This document shows, one piece after another, positions 3 through 45,180 of a DNA stretch of 45,679 nt. Numbering within the stretch: the stretch's first letter is position 1; each line of letters starts with the position of its first letter. Below the pieces are notes generated by a model that saw only the letters and a program-made list of their open reading frames with translations, searched no databases and was not told the DNA's origin. Source of the stretch: Akkermansiaceae bacterium (GTDB lineage: Bacteria > Verrucomicrobiota > Verrucomicrobiia > Verrucomicrobiales > Akkermansiaceae); the NCBI GenBank assembly GCA_023301765.1, contig JALZUC010000051.1:29315-74993 (forward strand), read 5' to 3'. The translations under genes were made by a program, and so were the position numbers.

Positions 3-1451
3 ACACAAAAAAATAAAGCTGACGGAGAACTAGTAACTAGAAAAGATGGCTCCCAGGCACTTAAAGTGCGCAAGCGGAGGCGCCGCTCAGTACAGCCAGA
101 TAAGAACTCAAATAACCTTAGCCCCAAGGTAAAGTGGACCATTCTAGCGGGAACATTAGGCGTTGGAATCATTTTTACGGCAGCCATAATATTTATTATT
201 GCCAAGTATAACGGCCGCTCATTTAAAGAAAAAACCGAGTCTATAATTGCTGTAATAACGAATGCTCAAAAAAGTGAAATAAGCAAGTTACGCATTACTC
301 CTATATCAGCCAAAGCAACCACATTTAGTATAGATTGGGGTAATCATACCTTTCTAAAAAGGGCCGAGTTTAACAATTTAAGATCAGATATTAAACCTGC
401 CAGCTTCATAACCAGTAAATGGAAGGGGCCGGAAATTGTCACCAGCACTGGCCAAATCTATCTTCAAAAACCTCTGTTGTCAGCCGAAACAACGTCAGAT
501 ACTTCTCCATCACCCTACGATTTTGGATCATACCGGTGTAATCAACTCGATATCTATTTTGGCCAAAATCCAGACGCCCCGGCTATAAAAGAATTACAAA
601 TCTCATTACGCAAGACGAACACGGAAATACACCAAATTGTATTCCAAGGCGGTAAGGTAATAATTCCAGATTGGCCTGATTGCAGATTATCATCAGGCAT
701 CATTACTCTCAACGCAGAAGACGCTCAGATAGAAACTCTAATTAGTGCTGAAAATAGTAAATCTGGGGCGCTTAAAATCACTGGCCGGATTCCTAAAAAC
801 ACACAAAAGAACATCAAGCTTAATGTTAAAGCCACAAACTACCCCATACATGAGTTACTAGGTACAGAACTTGGTAAACTTGTGCTAGGGAATGTTCAGA
901 GTGATCTAGGCGAAATATCCTACGATTATGATAACCCCTCAGCCTCTGGACTTAAATTTTCTCTTCCTTTCAACTCCAACTACATCCGCATCACTTCGTT
1001 CCCCTTTCTCACTATTCTAAAGGACTTTACTAATAATTCTAAATATGTGCGCCCCAGCTTCACTAACTGCGAGGGCGATATTATACGAACCGCGAGCGGC
1101 GTTAGCCTCAATAACATAGACTTTGTCAGCAATAGCCTCATTAGCCTACTCGGTGATATACATGTTGGATCTGATCAAAAATTAAGCGGCACACTTGATG
1201 TAGGCATTCCAGTATCTGCATTTATTGGTAGTCCACCAAAACCATTTACAGGGCCGAGAGATGGCCTATATTATGTGAAACTCACTCTAAGCGGCACTAT
1301 CCAGAACCCACATGATAACCTTCGTGAGCTACTAAGCCCTTACACAAGAGCTAAAGAAAACCTACCAAGACCACGGTCTCATACAGAGCTACTTCGCACT
1401 CCTACCCCTAATGAAAAAATGGAAGATGCCTTTGAGAACCTCAGTCGTTGA
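3..1451 (+). CDS. Single-pass membrane protein, AsmA-like (partial at left edge)
   Basis: The reading frame is open from the first complete codon of the window, so the 5' end probably lies outside it. A GTG at 66 is the first conventional start inside, but nothing marks it as the real one. From that GTG, residues 1-22 are very basic, residues about 23-47 form one membrane segment, and the rest is a beta-rich extracytoplasmic domain. The last 200 residues (motifs such as SGALKITGRIP, LSGTLDVGIPVSAFIG and VKLTLSGTIQNP) resemble the C-terminal repeats of AsmA-like proteins, which occur in envelope lipid transport. That assignment is tentative. It is first of five co-directional genes and ends 16 bp before the next start, so it probably works with the MoxR/DUF58/transglutaminase proteins downstream. 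Confidence 0.6.
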   Translation, partial: TQKNKADGELVTRKDGSQALKVRKRRRRSVQPDKNSNNLSPKVKWTILAGTLGVGIIFTAAIIFIIAKYNGRSFKEKTESIIAVITNAQKSEISKLRITPISAKATTFSIDWGNHTFLKRAEFNNLRSDIKPASFITSKWKGPEIVTSTGQIYLQKPLLSAETTSDTSPSPYDFGSYRCNQLDIYFGQNPDAPAIKELQISLRKTNTEIHQIVFQGGKVIIPDWPDCRLSSGIITLNAEDAQIETLISAENSKSGALKITGRIPKNTQKNIKLNVKATNYPIHELLGTELGKLVLGNVQSDLGEISYDYDNPSASGLKFSLPFNSNYIRITSFPFLTILKDFTNNSKYVRPSFTNCEGDIIRTASGVSLNNIDFVSNSLISLLGDIHVGSDQKLSGTLDVGIPVSAFIGSPPKPFTGPRDGLYYVKLTLSGTIQNPHDNLRELLSPYTRAKENLPRPRSHTELLRTPTPNEKMEDAFENLSR

Positions 1452-1467
1452 TACTACAGCAGTCTTG

Positions 1468-3468
1468 ATGAAAATTATCGTAAGCATCATTTTTCTTATA
1501 GCTGGTGTAATTACCTCAGCTAAAGCTAAAGAGGCCGATATTATACGATCCTCCAAAGCCGCCATTAGCTATTTAGAGATGCTAAATAGTGGTGATTACA
1601 ACCTTACCGATAATACAGCACTATCAAGCTACTGTAGCAGTAGCAGAATCACTGAAATTAAAACTCAGCTAGCATTCTATAAAAAAACAAGTCTATCTCA
1701 TGGTGACAAATACCAGCTAATAGACAAAAAAGTATTAGGTTCGCTCGCTGCTGTGATTATACGTGCAGAAAATCAATCTTCACCTCTAAATACGCATATT
1801 CATGCTCTAGCCATGGTTGAGCATAATGGCACATGGTTACCTGCTCCATTACCAGGCTCATTTACAAATACCATATCCACCTACGAGCTTGATACCGAAA
1901 AAGCCACAAAAAATCTAGAACAGTGGATGGCTAAAGAAAAAAATAAATATCAGACCAATGCGCGTAATAAAGCATCTAACAAACTATTATCAAAGGTTTC
2001 ACAAGAGGCTGAAAAAATCGATTTAAAAAACATTACTCCTGAGCAGCTAACACTAGAGCTCATTCATGCACTACGATCTAAAGACACCCCAAAATCCCTT
2101 GCAATCCTGGGCGTAGCTTCAGATGTCCTTGCCCCTACCCTAGAGACCCTGACCTCCAAATTATCTAACGGATTAAAAATAAATTCCATAGATAATGAAT
2201 GGACACTTGTTAAGGACGCCGCTGCTCTTGTCCAAATCATGCATTTGGATACTAAGAACAATAAGGTAGCCGTGGGGTTTTGGAATCCTCTGGTAAAAAC
2301 AGAAAAACGCGCAGCTATCCTCTATTTCCCCTTTTATAAATCTGAGGGTAAAACATTTTTAAAACTACCTAAGCTTTTATCCATAGGACTACTATCAAGA
2401 ATTGAACGCTTGCGCCAACGTAGACGCCTGAGCGATGTTGATAGAAACAAGCTACTGAGCAAACTACCTGAAAAAATATTACAGAACACCGCCGTAAAAA
2501 CTCATACTGATAAAGAAACACTCCTCACTACAATAATAGGCAGCCCCAAAAAATCAGAATTTTTAAAACTCATTAGCCTCTTGCCACGTGAAGCAAAGTT
2601 TTTAAATACAGCGGCACAAAAGAAAGAATCTCTAGAAGCTGTCAGCGAACTATTAGTGCGCCTCCAAACTATGCAATCTAGGTCCATGCTGAACCCCAGC
2701 CCCTTCCAAAATAAAAATATAGCTCTAGCACCACTCCATGTCATCAACCCCCATATTCCAGAAGAATTTACCATCATTAATATCTGGATGATCAAACTAG
2801 AAAAATCCTGGCATCTCATTCCGGAGCGCATACTTGCTAAACACGGAGGCGCTGAGATAAACCTGACAATACAAAAACTACTTCAGGAGATGAGGGCCAC
2901 TCAAAAAGCTGCACAAGCAAAGCTATTACATAAAATAACTGCAGGAATCACCTCACTATCTCCTCCTCTGCAACTACCTCCCCCATCTGAGGCCTTAGCT
3001 AAAGAAACACTCTTTAACTTCTTTGAATTACTGAAGTCTAACAAAATTAGACCAGCACTCCATTACTGTGCAGCTCTAGATAACACCAGTAATCAGCAAA
3101 TCCTAAAAACATCCAGTTACTTGATACGCGGTAAAGCAGATCAAGCCACTGTAACGCAAGTTCTCGGTTATCACCAGACAGATAATTGGGCAGCTCTGAG
3201 TCTAAAGACACACCCTAAATCATCTGACAAAAAAAATTACCCTCTTTACCTCATTGTTAATACAGCTCATGGTTGTAAAGTTCTATTAGATATAGAACTC
3301 CACCATTCCACAAATAAAGGCCAAGAGCTACTAAACAAAAAAGCTTGGGAAAAACTCACTAACAGCCTCCCTAAAGAATCCTTATCAGCCGTGCAAGCAC
3401 TGTTTAAAAAACACACTAAACTAAGCAGCCAAGATATTACCCAAAACACATCTAAAGCTAAGGACTAA
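1468..3468 (+). CDS. Secreted hypothetical protein with four degenerate NTF2-like repeats
   Basis: I do not recognise a named family. The frame is open upstream to an ATG at 1411, but the ATG at 1468 gives a clean signal peptide (residues 1-20, hydrophobic core IIVSIIFLIAGVIT, then AKA) and avoids overlap with the previous gene. The 666-residue mature-type protein seems to contain four divergent units at about 26-131, 191-304, 347-454 and 507-611. Each starts with a helix carrying a 'LxxLxSxD/K' pattern and ends in a strand such as HALAMVEHNGTWLPAP or INIWMIKLEKSWHLIP. This is the pattern of DUF4878/NTF2-like lumenal domains, an inference by eye. Linkers are Lys-rich and helical. It sits 28 bp before moxR, so an envelope role with that system is likely. 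Confidence 0.7.
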   Translation: MKIIVSIIFLIAGVITSAKAKEADIIRSSKAAISYLEMLNSGDYNLTDNTALSSYCSSSRITEIKTQLAFYKKTSLSHGDKYQLIDKKVLGSLAAVIIRAENQSSPLNTHIHALAMVEHNGTWLPAPLPGSFTNTISTYELDTEKATKNLEQWMAKEKNKYQTNARNKASNKLLSKVSQEAEKIDLKNITPEQLTLELIHALRSKDTPKSLAILGVASDVLAPTLETLTSKLSNGLKINSIDNEWTLVKDAAALVQIMHLDTKNNKVAVGFWNPLVKTEKRAAILYFPFYKSEGKTFLKLPKLLSIGLLSRIERLRQRRRLSDVDRNKLLSKLPEKILQNTAVKTHTDKETLLTTIIGSPKKSEFLKLISLLPREAKFLNTAAQKKESLEAVSELLVRLQTMQSRSMLNPSPFQNKNIALAPLHVINPHIPEEFTIINIWMIKLEKSWHLIPERILAKHGGAEINLTIQKLLQEMRATQKAAQAKLLHKITAGITSLSPPLQLPPPSEALAKETLFNFFELLKSNKIRPALHYCAALDNTSNQQILKTSSYLIRGKADQATVTQVLGYHQTDNWAALSLKTHPKSSDKKNYPLYLIVNTAHGCKVLLDIELHHSTNKGQELLNKKAWEKLTNSLPKESLSAVQALFKKHTKLSSQDITQNTSKAKD

Positions 3469-34628: not shown

Positions 34629-35177
34629 TTAGTCAACCTCCGCATCACGTTTTTCCATCACGCCCAAGATCGCCTCTTCAAGTAAATGGCGGCTACGTAC
34701 CGGAATAGGCCTCAGCGAGACCACTACGCCGCTCTTTTTCTCCTCAGTAAAATGTAATACCAGCCTCTTAGCTCCGTGTGTAAAATCAGCATCCGCTACC
34801 TGTGACCAATAAATCACCTGCAGGTTATCCTTTGCTTTAAAAAAAGGAAATAACTCCACCCCCAGAGGACTAAGTATGATGTATGCGTGGCGAATACAGC
34901 GTAGCCCTAGACGAAACAAGATACCACACAACATAATACCCACCACGCTCAGCCACCACCAGCCCTTCAGTGGAGGCGCTTCTATACCCCAATCTTGAGT
35001 GGATAGAATAAACACACCCATAGCCGCAGCAAATACCACTACTGCACAGGCAAAAAACATCTGCCCCTGTGCTGCCCTCGTAAAACGTAGCTCCTTCTCT
35101 GGTTCAGCAATAGACTTCGGCCCGCGCGGCAGCACGGCGGACTTTACCTTATCACCCAATTTATCCTCAATATTCAT
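34629..35177 (-). CDS. Two-TM hypothetical protein with PH-like domain
   Basis: Not named. It has an N-terminal cytoplasmic segment rich in Lys/Glu, membrane segments at about 40-59 and 73-93, then a beta-rich domain of about 80 residues (ILSPLGVELFPFFKAKDNLQVIYWSQVADADFT, KRLVLHFTEEKKSGVVVSL), a layout seen in bacterial PH-like or DUF304-type membrane proteins. The first gene of a two-gene unit with the YbjN-like gene; divergent from uvrB with only 87 bp between starts. Confidence 0.6.
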   Translation of the reverse strand: MNIEDKLGDKVKSAVLPRGPKSIAEPEKELRFTRAAQGQMFFACAVVVFAAAMGVFILSTQDWGIEAPPLKGWWWLSVVGIMLCGILFRLGLRCIRHAYIILSPLGVELFPFFKAKDNLQVIYWSQVADADFTHGAKRLVLHFTEEKKSGVVVSLRPIPVRSRHLLEEAILGVMEKRDAEVD

Positions 35178-37389: not shown

Positions 37390-37914
37390 TTAGTCCACCA
37401 CTGCTAGCCGATCATGACTCTCACCGCTGTCTATATCCGTAAGCAAGTTAGCAGTCTGACTCTGCCCAGATGCCGTAAGACTGAATGTTTTATGCGAGTG
37501 CATTCCATCACTATGAGTCTCCATATATCTCTTTTTAGCTAAAGTATCCACAAGCTTTGTAGTATTAGCAGGCTTACGATCGAAGCTTTGCAGGAAAAGA
37601 TTAAGCCTCTTAGTGTCCATATCTTCATCACCCTCCAGCCGCTTATGATAACTAGCTAGCATAACAGACTCCATACCAGATAGACGGTACTTCTTATCTT
37701 CAAGAATCCTCCTGATCGACCATAGAGTTTCACCGATACGCTTATCCTCATTACCCTCCACATGAGTCGCCGCCATAAAAGCCTCTTCCGCCACCTTCAT
37801 CTCATACTTCTTAGTAATGAACTCATGGTAAAGACGTAACTGCTCAGCACTCATTTGATCGCTCATTTCAAGCGCGTTACTAGCTAATTTATGGATCATA
37901 TCCGGCTCAGACAT
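37390..37914 (-). CDS. Hypothetical protein with possible winged-helix C-terminus
   Basis: Not recognised by name. It is 174 residues and mainly helical. The C-terminal part TTKLVDTLAKKRYMETHSDGMHSHKTFSLTASGQSQTANLL follows the pattern of a MarR-type recognition helix and wing (LVDxLxKxGYhExxxxxxxxxxxhxLTxxGxxxxxxL). The N-terminal 100 residues would then be the first helices of the fold. DNA binding is inferred only. It ends 8 bp from uvrB on the opposite strand and is divergent from the coiled-coil gene across an AT-rich 234-bp region. Confidence 0.55.
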   Translation of the reverse strand: MSEPDMIHKLASNALEMSDQMSAEQLRLYHEFITKKYEMKVAEEAFMAATHVEGNEDKRIGETLWSIRRILEDKKYRLSGMESVMLASYHKRLEGDEDMDTKRLNLFLQSFDRKPANTTKLVDTLAKKRYMETHSDGMHSHKTFSLTASGQSQTANLLTDIDSGESHDRLAVVD

Positions 37915-38148
37915 AGCAGAAACTTAGCCGAAATATATTAATCAAGCAAGCCAATATAGCAGAACATACATTTATTTAAGCTAAAACCGTAAACATATTC
38001 AGAAAAATAAATATTTCGGAAATCTTAAATTAGCATTAAAAACCATTGTTTTACATAGGGTTATAAAAACAATATTAGCAATATATTGCACCGCAGCTCA
38101 TTTCTGTGCATTTTTTAGCTGCAGTTGAGCCACCGCAGCTACGAAGTT
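37915..38148. promoter_or_regulatory. AT-rich divergent promoter region with a 10-bp direct repeat
   Basis: The region between the two divergent genes is clearly AT-richer than its neighbours. CACCGCAGCT occurs at 38089-38098 and 38131-38140, and GCAGCT and AGCTGC lie between. These might be binding sites for a regulator, possibly the winged-helix-like product. No other gene is seen. Confidence 0.3.
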
Positions 38149-38763
38149 ATGAAAGCACGTTTTGACATCCACTTCCCCTTAAATGGACGGTATACCCCAG
38201 TCCAAGGCATTACCCCCACACCACCGAGAACCTACACGCGCAGGGATCGTCAGTCACCGAGTATGCCCTCAGCCCCTGCTACAACAGACTCATTTAGTCA
38301 GGCAAATAGCCAACACCCCTATAAGTTAGAAGAAGAGATAAAACTTTCTGAACTAGAAGATTACACTAATCTGCTAATTTCCCAGCTAACTAATACGCAA
38401 GAAAACTCTGAACTCTACCTAGAAGACCTTCTGCCCAGCTATGTAAAACTTCAGAGAAAATATGAAAAATCTCGCAAAACTAGCAAAGACCAGCAGAGCT
38501 TAGCCAGAAAGCTAGTTCAAGTCGCAGAACCATTACTCAGTAATGGCGCCGTGACAGAAAAAGAAAAACAAGGACTCCTAAACGTCACTGGGCTAGCAGT
38601 AGAAAAAGTGATGCAGCTAAAAATGCGCAGCTCTAATCTCCGCCAACGTATTATTTTCCTCAAACTGACCATCCCTCAGTATGTGGAAAACTACGCTCGC
38701 CTACTAGGTCACCCTAGCGATGTCTGCCAGCAGCTGGCAAATGTGGCGAAGTCTGAGCTCTAA
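38149..38763 (+). CDS. Helical, coiled-coil hypothetical protein
   Basis: A 204-residue product; an in-frame TTG at 38125 would add eight residues. It starts with a short hydrophobic/beta stretch (MKARFDIHFPLNGRY), then a proline/serine-rich disordered linker to about residue 68, then a long helical region with coiled-coil potential (ISQLTNTQENSELYLEDLL, LQRKYEKSRKTSKDQQSL). The tail ends in ANVAKSEL. No domain is recognised. It is divergent from the winged-helix-like gene; its stop codon overlaps that of a small gene on the other strand by 3 bp. Confidence 0.55.
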   Translation: MKARFDIHFPLNGRYTPVQGITPTPPRTYTRRDRQSPSMPSAPATTDSFSQANSQHPYKLEEEIKLSELEDYTNLLISQLTNTQENSELYLEDLLPSYVKLQRKYEKSRKTSKDQQSLARKLVQVAEPLLSNGAVTEKEKQGLLNVTGLAVEKVMQLKMRSSNLRQRIIFLKLTIPQYVENYARLLGHPSDVCQQLANVAKSEL

Positions 38764-41150: not shown

Positions 41151-43163
41151 TTAACTTTTATAGTACCGCTGATAGAAACTATGACTGAGAGCCTCTCTCT
41201 TTACCCTTGAATAAGCTAGTAATCGGTATCGTAGGCAAAACTCAATAATAGTGAAAAACCGCTTCCAAAAACCATGTTTTGTCCACTTCCTAGCAGACAC
41301 CTCTGCTTCTTTCCCCAGATAGAGCAAATCACCTAAGCCACCTAACCTATCACTCATTTCCACATCTTCCATCAAAGGCTGATCAGTAAGAACTCCAGCT
41401 TGAAGAGCCGTCTCACGATGGAAGAATTGTGTTTGGTCACCAAAGCTTGTCGAGAGAAGAACAGCTCGAAACTCATTCATAACCTCAATAAGTAAAAGCC
41501 CCAGACTCTCATTACCAAATCTCTGCCCCAGCGAGCCCCCTACTGTGTGAGGGTTTTTATCTAGCGCATCCGCTAGATGCACTAATGACCCCTTCGGCAA
41601 AGTAACATCTGAATGTAAGATGACTACCCAATCACCACTAGCGGCCTCCACCCCTGCTTTAATCTGCCCGCCTCTCCCCTGCTTTGTTTGTAATATTAGA
41701 ATGTTTAAATCCTTTGACTCAAGCCCATCAAGTGAGCCGTCACTCGAGTCAGCATCTGCTAATATCACCTCATTTGGCTTGAGACTCTGAGCGGATAGAT
41801 CATCTAATACCCTATCCAGATGTTTACCTGCATTGTACGTGGGAATCACCACTGAGAAATTAGTAACTTCACCACAGCCGCTCTTTTTTGGGAGCATTTT
41901 CACCCTAGTCAACAGGCTCTTATTTTCTAGGAACAGAAATACAAAAAATGGCCCCCAAAATACCAGATGTGCCCAGAGCGGTAGAGACCACCCCTTTCCT
42001 GTAGCTGCGGAGTGCCATACCAGAAAGTAAAGGCTCGATGTTACAGACAGCGATAGCCATGACAACTTCGGCCGTACCGCCACAAAAGGTAAAGCCCAAG
42101 TAAGATACCAGAAATGCACAATCGGAGAAAGTACTACCAAGCTACCCAGTGCTACTAATAAAGATGACCACAACCTCTTTTTAAGTATTAACCAGAAGGC
42201 AAAAAACCAGCACAGGGAATAAAGCCCAGCCACCGCCAGATTAGCCGCCTTCACACCTCCAAAAAGTGTCTTGCTTAGTAGCTGGTGCACTGGACCATTA
42301 AAACTACCACCTGACCCAAACAAAAATAAAGCATGCGCCACAGACCCTAGACTCTGCCAGTAAAAAACGATCGGCAAGATGAGCACGAGTGCCGCCACTG
42401 ACCAGCCACGCTTTCCAGACCTCCATAGTAATAACGGCGCTACCACTGCTGCCATTATCTTGACCCCCACTGCTATAGCCACCGCTGCACCACAGGTAGC
42501 CCACCACCGCTTTGAATGAGCTAACATCGCTACCGTTAGAGCAAATACCATCAAGATATCAAAATGCCCTTCCGCAGCATATGAAAACAAGACAAGTGGA
42601 CTTAATGCGTAAAACAACACCCACCGCAAAGGTAATAAATGATGCCTCAGTAATGCTAAGAGCGTAGTAATCAATAGCATATCTAACACCATCGCCACTA
42701 CCTTGTAGCTCATAGGACTATACCCTAGCTTATTGATTAGACGAAATGCATGCATCGCTAGCGGTGGGTATGCCGTAGGCCGATCACGGTGATTCATTAC
42801 CGCCCAGTACTCATCCTCATAGGGCTCAAACACTGCAGCATCAGCAGTGTCCTGATAGGGGTCTACCCCTAGCTCAGTTAGTTTCCCCTCCCACAAATAA
42901 CGGTTTACATCATCAGATGGTGCCGTAGGGAGTAACGTCAGGCGAGGTAGAAGAGATACCCCCAATATTAAGAAAATAGCCGTTTTCCCAGACACTCTAG
43001 GAAAAATCAATGCTGAGCTTAGCCCCAGAACGCCAATGGTAATACCCAATAAAACACGAGATACTCCAGCGGCATCAAAACTGGTAGTAACAGAGCTATA
43101 GACACAGCAAGCTGCAATCAGTCCAAGATTGATAATCAGCCATACTATCCACCTATTAGACAC
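41151..43163 (-). CDS. Fused GT-C and GT2 glycosyltransferase
   Basis: The 670-residue protein fuses two enzymes. Residues 1-about 415 are a polytopic GT-C type mannosyltransferase/GT87-like domain with acidic pair DDVNRYLWEGKL (84-95), about eleven membrane segments and the loop YPPLAMHAF. After a short linker, residues 435-670 are a cytoplasmic family 2 glycosyltransferase: FSVVIPTYNAGKHLDRVLDDL, DADSSDGS, GRGGQIKAGVEAA, HSDVTLPKGS and MEDVEMSDRLG. The GT2 part resembles the enzymes found beside arsenosugar biosynthesis genes (TIGR04283-like). Probably a polyprenyl-phosphate sugar route to envelope glycans. Its start lies 3 bp from the next gene's end, so they are co-transcribed. Confidence 0.85.
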   Translation of the reverse strand: MSNRWIVWLIINLGLIAACCVYSSVTTSFDAAGVSRVLLGITIGVLGLSSALIFPRVSGKTAIFLILGVSLLPRLTLLPTAPSDDVNRYLWEGKLTELGVDPYQDTADAAVFEPYEDEYWAVMNHRDRPTAYPPLAMHAFRLINKLGYSPMSYKVVAMVLDMLLITTLLALLRHHLLPLRWVLFYALSPLVLFSYAAEGHFDILMVFALTVAMLAHSKRWWATCGAAVAIAVGVKIMAAVVAPLLLWRSGKRGWSVAALVLILPIVFYWQSLGSVAHALFLFGSGGSFNGPVHQLLSKTLFGGVKAANLAVAGLYSLCWFFAFWLILKKRLWSSLLVALGSLVVLSPIVHFWYLTWALPFVAVRPKLSWLSLSVTSSLYFLVWHSAATGKGWSLPLWAHLVFWGPFFVFLFLENKSLLTRVKMLPKKSGCGEVTNFSVVIPTYNAGKHLDRVLDDLSAQSLKPNEVILADADSSDGSLDGLESKDLNILILQTKQGRGGQIKAGVEAASGDWVVILHSDVTLPKGSLVHLADALDKNPHTVGGSLGQRFGNESLGLLLIEVMNEFRAVLLSTSFGDQTQFFHRETALQAGVLTDQPLMEDVEMSDRLGGLGDLLYLGKEAEVSARKWTKHGFWKRFFTIIEFCLRYRLLAYSRVKREALSHSFYQRYYKS

Positions 43164-43166
43164 GTC

Positions 43167-44675
43167 TCAACTCCCTTCCTTCAAACTATAGATACCAAAT
43201 AACCCAAGCCCAGCAGCATAAATTAGGAAAAACGGTACCATCCCCCCAACGCCAACACTATAGTAATAGAGTGCTGTAATAACCGAGAGCAGAGACAAGG
43301 CTATTTCGATCCAAGGTAAAATAGATTTCTTACCCTTATAGCGCACCTTTTCCTTATCATCTCCCTGCTTAGGAGTTCGCACAAATGGTGACTCAATCCC
43401 GATGAGCCCTTCCATACACGCCCTTGCATTACTAGCACAGATACCAAAACCAATGCATAACAGCATAGGTAAACGAGCAAAGAAGTAACCTGCGCGGGTA
43501 GGAGAAATCCATAGTTCGGCTGTTAAATACAGTAAACTTGGTCCCATCATCGCTAACACCATTGGCGCTATAAACCATAATGCGAAAATAGACTGAAACA
43601 CCTCAGGTGTTAGTAAAGCAATAGGAAGTGCTAATAAAAGCTGCACACACATACACAGATGAATCGCATAATGTGTTAAATGGAATGTAGCTTCGATCTT
43701 TTTACGTAAAGGCTCATCAGATCCCCACACCTTTGGTAGAATCTTTTTGGCTGTCTGCATTGAGCCTTTAGCCCAGCGAAACTGCTGACTACGGAAACCA
43801 CGGAAAAGGGCTGGAAGCTCAGCCGGCACACACAACCCTGGCAGATAATGAAACTTCCATCCTTTTAGCTGTGCCCTGTAGGATAGGTCAAGATCCTCAG
43901 TAAGAGTATCTGCCTGCCATCCACCTGCATCATCAATAGCTTCCCGATTCCATACACCTGCAGTGCCGTTAAAATTTAAGAAATGGCCATTATAAGAACG
44001 CGCAACCTGCTCCACGACAAAGTGGCCGTCTATACCGACACTCTGAGCACGAGTAAAAAACGTATCTTCTGCATTCAGGTGATCCCAGCGTGCCTGCACT
44101 ACACCACATTTATCCCGTGATAGAAAATGAGGAATCACACGTTTGAGGAAATTCGCTGGTGGCACAAAGTCACTGTCAAAAATCGCAATGTAAGGGGAAT
44201 CATCCTTAGTCATACCATAAGCCAGTGCACCTGCCTTATAGCCTACGCGATCATCTCTTCTAACAACCTCAATATTTACGCCCTCAGCACGTAGCTCTGC
44301 AGCAATTTCATCCACCATCCCTACAGTCTCATCATCAGAGTCATCCAGCAGCTGGATCGCATGATTTGGGTAGTCAATTGCTGCTACAGCGCGAATCACG
44401 CGCTCAGCTACTGTGGACTCATTATATAGTGGTAGCTGACTTAACACCGCTGGTGCAGAGTCCTCAGTAAAGTTGCACTCAGCTTCTACCTCATGATTTT
44501 CAGTAACTACCTTATCCTTGACCTTAAAAAAGAGCCATAGAACATAATAATGGTGAAGTCCATAAAGCAGCAGCATAGCGCTACAAATTGCATAAAGAGC
44601 GATAGGAAGGTAAGAGATCATTAAGTAATAATTAAAAGGTGTATGCAGGTAACAGAAAAGATCATAAAAAGCCAA
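43167..44675 (-). CDS. Processive family 2 glycosyltransferase (cellulose synthase-like)
   Basis: A membrane-embedded GT2 enzyme of 502 residues. Two N-terminal membrane segments, then the catalytic domain with LPLYNESTVAERVI, first aspartates in LLDDSDDETV, DSDFVPP, TEDLDLSYRA and the QQFRW motif (FRGFRSQQFRWAKGSMQTAKKI), which is the D,D,D,QxxRW signature of processive beta-glycosyltransferases. Four or more C-terminal membrane segments follow. Relatives make cellulose, glucomannan or glucosylceramide-like products. No c-di-GMP-binding PilZ domain is seen at the C-terminus. Encoded 3 bp before the fused glycosyltransferase, so both may build the same polysaccharide or glycolipid. Confidence 0.9.
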   Translation of the reverse strand: MAFYDLFCYLHTPFNYYLMISYLPIALYAICSAMLLLYGLHHYYVLWLFFKVKDKVVTENHEVEAECNFTEDSAPAVLSQLPLYNESTVAERVIRAVAAIDYPNHAIQLLDDSDDETVGMVDEIAAELRAEGVNIEVVRRDDRVGYKAGALAYGMTKDDSPYIAIFDSDFVPPANFLKRVIPHFLSRDKCGVVQARWDHLNAEDTFFTRAQSVGIDGHFVVEQVARSYNGHFLNFNGTAGVWNREAIDDAGGWQADTLTEDLDLSYRAQLKGWKFHYLPGLCVPAELPALFRGFRSQQFRWAKGSMQTAKKILPKVWGSDEPLRKKIEATFHLTHYAIHLCMCVQLLLALPIALLTPEVFQSIFALWFIAPMVLAMMGPSLLYLTAELWISPTRAGYFFARLPMLLCIGFGICASNARACMEGLIGIESPFVRTPKQGDDKEKVRYKGKKSILPWIEIALSLLSVITALYYYSVGVGGMVPFFLIYAAGLGLFGIYSLKEGS

Positions 44676-44715: not shown

Positions 44716-45180
44716 TTAGGAAACTAATTTCCTCCATTCAGATTGAGCTATTTTAAGCTGAGACTCCTCACTCTCAGAATTCCAGCTCTTAAGGGTATCA
44801 CCCCAGAGCACCGATTTATAGAACAGATAAATTCTACCCTTGATGATTTTATAGCTCTTGGGGTTAACCCTAACTTTCCCAGCTTTCACAGCGAAGGCAT
44901 AAGCACACCAGCCACCATAAGCAGGTTCATACTTAGTGGGATTACTTTTGAACTCCCTGAGATTCTCGGCAGATGAAAAATGGTATGTTACACCACTTTT
45001 TGAATAAATATGGGTAGTATCACCCTTTTTGGGTTTTCCCGAAAAATATGATACAGGGTCATAGCCCTGTAGGGCTAAGCCACCCTTTAAATTATAGTGC
45101 TTCTGCCGTTGATATTGCGTATCTGCCTGAGCAGCAAAAGCTAAGAACCAGATACTAAGTATAGAGAAATATAGTTTCAT
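44716..45180 (-). CDS. Secreted YHS-domain protein
   Basis: A signal peptide (MKLYFSILSIWFLAFAAQA) precedes a YHS domain: LALQGYDPVSYFSGKPKKGDTTHIYSKSGVTYHFSSAENLREFKSNPTKYEPAYGGWCAYAFAVKAGKVRVNPKSYKIIKGRIYLFYKSVL. YHS domains are small metal-associated domains; secreted stand-alone versions are common in Proteobacteria and Verrucomicrobia with no defined role. The final 25 residues are helical (ESQLKIAQSEWRKL). AGGA lies about 7 nt before the ATG, one of the few Shine-Dalgarno-like signals in the window. The preceding gene downstream is 40 bp away, so it may share a transcript with the glycosyltransferases. Confidence 0.88.
   Translation of the reverse strand: MKLYFSILSIWFLAFAAQADTQYQRQKHYNLKGGLALQGYDPVSYFSGKPKKGDTTHIYSKSGVTYHFSSAENLREFKSNPTKYEPAYGGWCAYAFAVKAGKVRVNPKSYKIIKGRIYLFYKSVLWGDTLKSWNSESEESQLKIAQSEWRKLVS

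Follow-up and report, generated by a model that had tools for sequence, protein, structure and literature searches.

The stretch analysed here, referred to as the window, is 45,679 nucleotides long and belongs to contig C51 (JALZUC010000051.1) of an Akkermansiaceae bacterium. Its minus strand carries a gene for a membrane glycosyltransferase of the GT-C type fused to a GT2 domain, preceded by the gene of a BcsA-like synthase. The organization of the fusion gene, which is the main subject of this study, is the following (lengths in amino acids, aa):

41151..43163, minus strand: GT-C/GT2 fusion protein, 670 aa, GTG start (Pfam, NCBIfam and structural model)
41904..43010, minus strand: predicted GT-C domain with the fold of ALG3, GPI mannosyltransferase I, ALG6 and PimE, residues 52-420 (VIA-align match to ALG3, Z 28.4 over 334 residues, root-mean-square deviation 3.1)
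41154..41864, minus strand: GT2 (GT-A) domain, TIGR04283-like, residues 434-670
42888..42917, minus strand: SDDVNRYLWE motif, residues 83-92, in which D85 is a candidate catalytic base
41355..41372, minus strand: MEDVEM motif, residues 598-603, with M598, E599, D600 and E602 invariant in 45 of 45 aligned proteins

Two glycosyltransferases in one protein

The first-pass annotation of the window had read this gene as a GT-C membrane part and a GT2 enzyme joined in one protein, and the fusion was confirmed. It is a single intact open reading frame (ORF) of 670 aa without internal stops and without any N. The AlphaFold2 model, for which the window protein was combined with those of 44 of the 62 fusion loci described below, reached a mean predicted local distance difference test score (pLDDT) of 94.1 and a predicted template modelling score of 0.94, with a dip in confidence (62 for the block 421-430) within the linker. 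As reasons to give up the fusion, the annotation had mentioned a read-through or assembly error at the linker (41861-41910, that is, residues 418-435) and its restriction to a single genome. Neither was found: the linker was uninterrupted in all 45 aligned proteins, and the search for the same architecture elsewhere, suggested in the same place, recovered both halves in one ORF at 62 of the 80 loci kept from 109 relatives found. Therefore, given a continuous linker and loci from different genomes, the chance that the fusion is an assembly or read-through artefact is negligible.

Besides its own genome, the fusion was present in five of 97 relatives, namely G013 (54%), G059 (47%), G014 (36%), G063 and G016, in which it is split over two contigs. 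Within the class it was found in 11 of 384 genomes, its own included, in a survey that scored three candidates per genome and that overlaps with the sample of loci (e.g., L082 is G059 and L109 is G014). According to the record titles, the carriers belong to Verrucomicrobiota, Desulfobacterales and other deltaproteobacteria, Nitrosomonas, Kiritimatiellae, Lentisphaerae, Planctomycetota, Fibrobacteria, Elusimicrobia and Cloacimonadota. A contig or locus end cuts at least six of the 62 fusion loci (L116, L123, L125, L129, L139, and L151). The halves are also known as separate proteins, as had been claimed, and both GT-C-alone loci and separate TIGR04283 genes were found. Some of the 18 GT-C-alone loci may, however, be cut or broken fusions, since three of them (L136, L143, and L146) reach a contig end and in another (L141) the GT2 is encoded by an overlapping ORF. 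In addition, four loci showed the opposite order, with a GT2 resembling dolichol-phosphate mannose synthase (DPMS) ahead of the GT-C part (L199:7168-9105, L045:3153-5147, L046:9971-11941, and L205:17250-19253), and thus the two enzymes have been joined in both orders; the fusion of L199 lies near ArsS, DUF547 and NapH-type genes. Among 72,556 plasmid records only three were matched, each covering 24-30% of the query, and therefore no fusion was found there.

With respect to the GT-C half, its predicted fold is that of enzymes using lipid-phosphate sugars, in agreement with the first reading. Residues 52-420 of the model matched yeast ALG3 best, followed by GPI mannosyltransferase I (Z 23.6), ALG6 (22.0), PimE (21.2) and ArnT (17.3), which identifies a GT-C_A transmembrane fold, shared also by the non-enzyme PIG-U. 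Sequence identity to the five transferases is only 13-16% and, unlike them, the fusion adds a C-terminal GT2 domain. Pfam GT87 (PF09594) was matched at residues 132-347 with 16.0 bits, under the gathering cut-off of 25, and reached E <= 0.01 in 18 of the 45 aligned proteins. Thirteen residues of this half were invariant in all 45 (D85, R88, E92, N124, Y132, K154, D161, H200, D202, K235, H350, W352, and Y353) and Y89 was Tyr in 44. For PimE, D58, to which Y62 is bonded, has been proposed as the catalytic base; the donor phosphate is bound by K195 and H322, and activity is lost on the changes K195A and W319A (PMC12041525, excerpts). In the model of the fusion, D85 directly follows a membrane helix and belongs to the first of the conserved periplasmic loops, where GT-C enzymes have their catalytic Asp; the spacing from D85 to Y89 equals that from D58 to Y62 of PimE, and an invariant Lys together with the His-x-Trp-Tyr motif recalls the Lys and His of the PimE phosphate site (PMC12041525, excerpts), both likenesses being matches of pattern and not superpositions of residues. 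Fold and invariant residues together suggest that the GT-C half takes its sugar from a polyprenyl-phosphate carrier.

The C-terminal half was matched by Pfam PF00535 (residues 437-553, E 1.2e-20) and by NCBIfam TIGR04283 (residues 437-648, 152.6 bits, E 1.1e-44). It shares with the TIGR04283 family the genomic company of ArsS and differs from it in a score below the cut-off (182) and in the fusion to GT-C. From residue 434 on, the model resembled GT-A enzymes such as TarS (Z 19.5) and WrtF (18.2). Residues G496, R497, Q500, H517, F574, D576, Q577, M598, E599, D600, E602, and W627 were invariant in the 45 proteins. In a tree of GT2 domains, 15 separate TIGR04283 members formed a clade of their own (98/94) and the window fusion grouped with fusions of Rubritalea and of metagenome-assembled genomes (MAGs) of Akkermansiaceae; this tree holds 15 of the 30 TIGR04283 loci fetched, has a meaningless root due to two very long rows, and was built after dropping 9 of 89 collected sequences with too short a domain, three of the four opposite-order fusions among them. 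Helix boundaries and sides were assigned by eye from the model. The tail between the last membrane helix and the GT2 domain is rich in Lys and Arg; by the positive-inside rule, this tail and the loops at 218-220, 328-330 and 364-366 indicate that the GT2 domain is probably cytoplasmic, as the first reading had it. Loop 122-133, placed outside, also has two Arg.

As for the joint action of both halves, the first-pass annotation supposed that one protein makes a lipid-linked sugar with its GT2 half and uses it across the membrane with its GT-C half; in detail, a polyprenyl-phosphate sugar would be formed at the cytoplasmic side, flipped and then consumed by GT-C. We regard this as possible but less likely than not. 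A GT-C enzyme of such a fold needs a polyprenyl-phosphate donor, and no other synthase of the DPMS, GtrB or ArnC type was recognised by eye in the host genome, a search that covered its eight PF00535 genes and the 97.8% of the genome that is available; a DPMS-type profile gave just a partial match of 48 bits there. Furthermore, DPMS was among the best matches of the fused GT2 profile to solved sequences (positions 3-116 of 238, 1.6e-14), ArnC gave the longest one (2-151), and the opposite-order fusions pair a DPMS-like GT2 with GT-C. This partial coverage is not discriminating, since none of the 38 solved sequences matched extends past position 151: the fused GT2 resembles DPMS, ArnC and GtrB by sequence in its first half, and the second half, which holds the Glu-Asp motif, matched no solved sequence. 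DPMS was absent from the 50 fold matches listed for the fusion model, which excludes nothing.

The same motif points in another direction. A Glu-Asp pair is characteristic of GT2 enzymes whose acceptor is a hydroxyl, where it acts as base, and the invariance of E599-D600 in 45 of 45 proteins thus argues against the synthesis of a lipid-linked donor by the fused GT2. So does the clearly DPMS-like GT2 of some other ArsS clusters, either separate or fused in the opposite order, which is of a different type and matches both DPMS and ArnC from position 17 to 220 of 246. The motif would fit a sequential transfer on two sides: at the inner side, a hydroxyl of some membrane acceptor would first receive a sugar from the GT2 half, and once the product had been flipped, the GT-C half would add to it at the outer side, drawing on a donor that another enzyme provides. 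The neighbouring synthase could supply the acceptor chain. However, no source of a GT-C donor was recognised in the host genome and no flippase was identified, and this second scheme appears slightly less likely to us than the first. Mycobacterial Ppm1 and PimE are, unlike the fusion, two separate proteins. There, a synthase supplies polyprenyl-phosphate mannose to the GT-C enzyme (PMC12041525, excerpts).

A BcsA-like synthase ahead of the fusion

The gene directly upstream of the fusion is the following:

43167..44675, minus strand: BcsA-like membrane GT2, 502 aa; its TGA stop is followed by GAC and then by the GTG start of the fusion (Pfam, model and fold match)

It ends three bases upstream of the fusion start. 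The model of its product (pLDDT 91.0) matched the cellulose synthase BcsA (4p00) with Z 29.2 over 442 residues, and D167/D169, T259-E260-D261 and Q297-Q298-x-R300-W301 were invariant in 35 of 35 aligned neighbour proteins. The protein thus has the DxD, TED and QQxRW motifs and the predicted membrane channel fold of BcsA-like processive synthases. The likeness in fold to BcsA includes the membrane part, with 18-20% identity in the matches to bacterial BcsA; unlike BcsA, the neighbour has no PilZ match in Pfam.

With adjacency defined as a distance from -700 (overlapping ORFs) to +400 bases, the synthase gene was directly ahead of the fusion gene at 47 of the 62 fusion loci, was fused to it in one more (L108), and was also directly ahead of the GT-C gene in 12 of the 18 GT-C-alone loci. 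It was not at that place in the 14 other fusion loci, a number to be read in the light of fusions that are themselves cut by the contig or locus end (L123, L139, and L151). The seed-based neighbour table can miss genes under overlapping ORFs, and it did miss the synthase of L098 and L121. The ORF of L108 (L108:3949-7428, on a MAG contig with about 3.8x coverage) encodes 1159 aa and combines the BcsA-like synthase, GT-C and GT2 in one frame. An alignment of this triple protein with separate fusions and synthases was misaligned (15-22% identity of the fusion rows to L108) and was discarded.

Other observations concern the surroundings and the host genome. Just upstream of both glycosyltransferase genes, window positions 44716-45180 encode a member of a YHS-domain (seleno)protein family (NF041384, 105.6 bits, cut-off 70). 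Four other ORFs of the window had no Pfam match at E 0.001: 1411-3468 (685 aa), 34629-35177, 37390-37914, and 38125-38763. A second BcsA-like synthase, also of 502 aa, is encoded on contig C30 (L258:643-2151) beside a small gene read as L,D-transpeptidase-like.

Association with arsenosugar genes

ArsM and ArsS carry out the first steps of arsenosugar synthesis, in which a radical SAM enzyme adenosylates arsenic (PMC8552651, PMC12159101, excerpts); the later steps and the conversion to lipids are not explained in the excerpts of these two papers. The first-pass annotation had assigned the GT2 half to an arsenosugar-associated type, and this label proved to be more than a name. ArsS was detected in 40 of the 62 fusion-bearing genomes (34 of 50 plus 6 of 12) and lay inside the fusion locus in 14 of the 62, against a chance expectation of 0.17 over the 40 ArsS-bearing genomes. 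Among the cultured relatives, Rubritalea profundi SAORIC-165 and Coraliomargarita sp. SDUM461004 carry the fusion, the BcsA-like gene and ArsS. Counted by blastp against seed proteins, the 62 loci contained ArsS in 14 cases, ArsM in 14, either of them in 17, TIGR04282-like genes in 22, NapH-type genes in 22 and DUF547 genes in 18. In the class survey, ArsS was found in 68 of 384 genomes (66 above the cut-off), that is, in 9 of the 11 with the fusion and in 59 of the 373 without it (p 4e-6, a value which, like the other co-occurrence p values, ignores kinship). The nine positive genomes belong to four families (f1, f13, f47, and f50) and the two negative ones to two others (f65 and f77). A strong GT-C match outside a forward fusion was likewise accompanied by ArsS, in 17 of 22 genomes compared with 51 of 362 (p 3e-10), where strong means 144.9 bits or more, a split set after the tables had been seen, and the strong set includes the opposite-order fusions of G184 and G193. 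The tie of the fusion family to arsenosugar genes is therefore statistically clear.

The fusion was found in the same cluster as arsenosugar genes in G013, G059 and G263. In G013, a genome of the same genus (locus L037), one strand carries in this order genes for an ArsM-like protein (345 bits to NF040538, cut-off 500), PHO4, ArsS (424 bits, cut-off 300), a low-molecular-weight phosphatase that reads as ArsC-like, a reductase, a NapH-like protein, the BcsA-like synthase, the fusion and DUF547. In G263 (locus L203), the order on one strand is ArsS (443.6 bits), DUF6503, DUF547, a 126-aa ORF, reductase/NapH, the BcsA-like synthase, the fusion and an ArsM-like gene, with TIGR04282 on the opposite strand. 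Two further neighbours, a flavin reductase fused to a NapH-type iron-sulphur protein and a DUF547 protein, are found repeatedly next to the fusion and ArsS (L040:1812-4184, L080:5756-6487, and relatives). A 250-aa neighbour considered as a TVP38 flippase was rejected as such, the protein being DUF547. The ArsS matches of the genomes of L099, L106, L115, L116, L121, and L142 have one in-frame TGA each, as in a selenoprotein form.

Separate TIGR04283 genes, which were counted by a score above the cut-off and not inspected one by one, occurred in 48 of the 68 ArsS genomes and in 20 of the 316 others. Within the ArsS genomes, they were present in 2 of the 9 with the fusion (G013 and G283) and in 46 of the 59 without it (p 0.0019). 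According to these counts, the fused GT2 apparently replaces the separate enzyme.

In the host genome, ArsS is encoded on contig C29 (415.7 bits, over the cut-off of 300), an ArsM-like protein on C28 (332 bits to NF040538, under the cut-off of 500), TIGR04282 on C14 (over the cut-off) and a single DUF547 protein on C54. The organism thus has ArsS together with an ArsM-like gene. In its TIGR04283 search, the fusion scored 156 bits, with 79.7 bits for the second-ranking gene. Contig C51 ends 1,004 bases beyond the synthase, and therefore most of the upstream side is unseen. The host ArsS gene adjoins that of an RND transporter and others (L194:8630-9601), in an order kept with the second ArsS copy of G013.

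Proposed function and biological meaning

Our preferred explanation, to which we give a probability of about 0.5, is that the fusion is a bifunctional inner-membrane glycosyltransferase that works with the BcsA-like synthase and most likely serves to attach either an arsenosugar or a partner sugar to a lipid or glycan. From the observed fusion, its conservation, the adjacency of the synthase, the co-occurrence and clustering with ArsS and the predicted folds, we infer donors, acceptors, order of action and an arsenosugar substrate in the host as follows. At the periplasmic side, the GT-C half would transfer a sugar from a polyprenyl-phosphate carrier to a membrane-bound acceptor, as its fold and invariant residues suggest, while the GT2 half, tethered at the cytoplasmic side, would use a nucleotide sugar. 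Together with the synthase, the fusion could take part in making a glycan or glycolipid whose synthesis begins at the inner side and is completed at the outer side. This module is often part of the ArsM/ArsS gene set in Verrucomicrobiota, Desulfobacterales and others, and it is this company, with the fused GT2 apparently in place of TIGR04283, that points to an arsenosugar or a partner sugar as the transferred unit.

Several observations weigh against this explanation, apart from the kinship that the p values ignore. PIG-U, a subunit of the GPI transamidase that transfers no sugars, matches the GT-C half at Z 20.9-22.4, and therefore the fold by itself is no proof of transferase activity. In loci L086-L088, the genes of ArsS, DUF547, the reductase, the fusion and an ArsM-like protein follow one another without an intervening synthase gene, although L086 carries one on the opposite strand. 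Weak GT-C matches are little tied to ArsS (6 of 16 genomes, p 0.045), and G013 and G283 carry both the fusion and a separate TIGR04283 gene. No ArsS match was found in 22 of the 62 fusion genomes, including Nitrosomonas aestuarii, most of them being MAGs of unstated completeness. Other gene contexts occur too: in Cloacimonadota (L134:908-9905), the fusion stands in a run after LpxI, LpxB and a lipid A acyltransferase, and in N. aestuarii (L091) it is followed by a Mur ligase gene. In Fibrobacteria (L114), TIGR04282-like, NapH-type and DUF547 genes lie beside the fusion in a genome with no ArsS match. These contexts imply that the module is not exclusively arsenical. In the host, moreover, ArsS, the ArsM-like gene, TIGR04282 and DUF547 are on contigs other than that of the fusion, and the counterpart of the host ArsS is the second copy of G013, with 86% identity and a conserved neighbourhood, the ArsS in the fusion cluster of that genome sharing just 52%. 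Identity to the ArsS proteins of G144, G263, L087, and L138 is 59-61%, and in the last three this gene lies beside a fusion. With the genes on different contigs and a second copy as the counterpart of its ArsS, the link to arsenic, strong for the fusion family, is indirect for the host organism.

The genomes without ArsS, the contexts of L134 and L091 and the separate contigs of the host would all be expected if the fusion belonged to a general module of envelope glycosylation (e.g., of lipid A or a beta-glycan) without a functional tie to arsenic, the association with ArsS being due to shared horizontal transfer or genomic islands. We consider this unlikely in view of the 14 loci with ArsS inside, far above the chance expectation, of the complementarity between the fusion and separate TIGR04283 genes among ArsS genomes, and of the strong GT-C matches outside forward fusions, which are tied to ArsS as well. 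At the other extreme, the product might be an arsenic-bearing membrane glycoconjugate, in which the arsenosugar made by ArsM and ArsS would be activated, carried across the membrane and attached by the fusion and its BcsA-like partner to a lipid or beta-glycan, for export and surface display; this more specific proposal is speculative and, in our view, improbable.

In the open-licence PMC literature, among the matches listed, no paper dealt with the GT-C/GT2 fusion or its cluster, and none named TIGR04283. As a conserved membrane module travelling with ArsS, the genes described here are candidates for the later steps of arsenosugar or arsenolipid synthesis, which can be tested by single-gene deletions. 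In addition, the naturally occurring proteins that join GT-C and GT2 in one order or the other offer material for studying how the supply and the use of a sugar donor are coupled across a membrane. Finally, the company of the fusion family, with the BcsA-like synthase and often the arsenosugar genes, is a hint that in some bacteria arsenosugars become linked to lipids of the membrane or to glycans of the surface.

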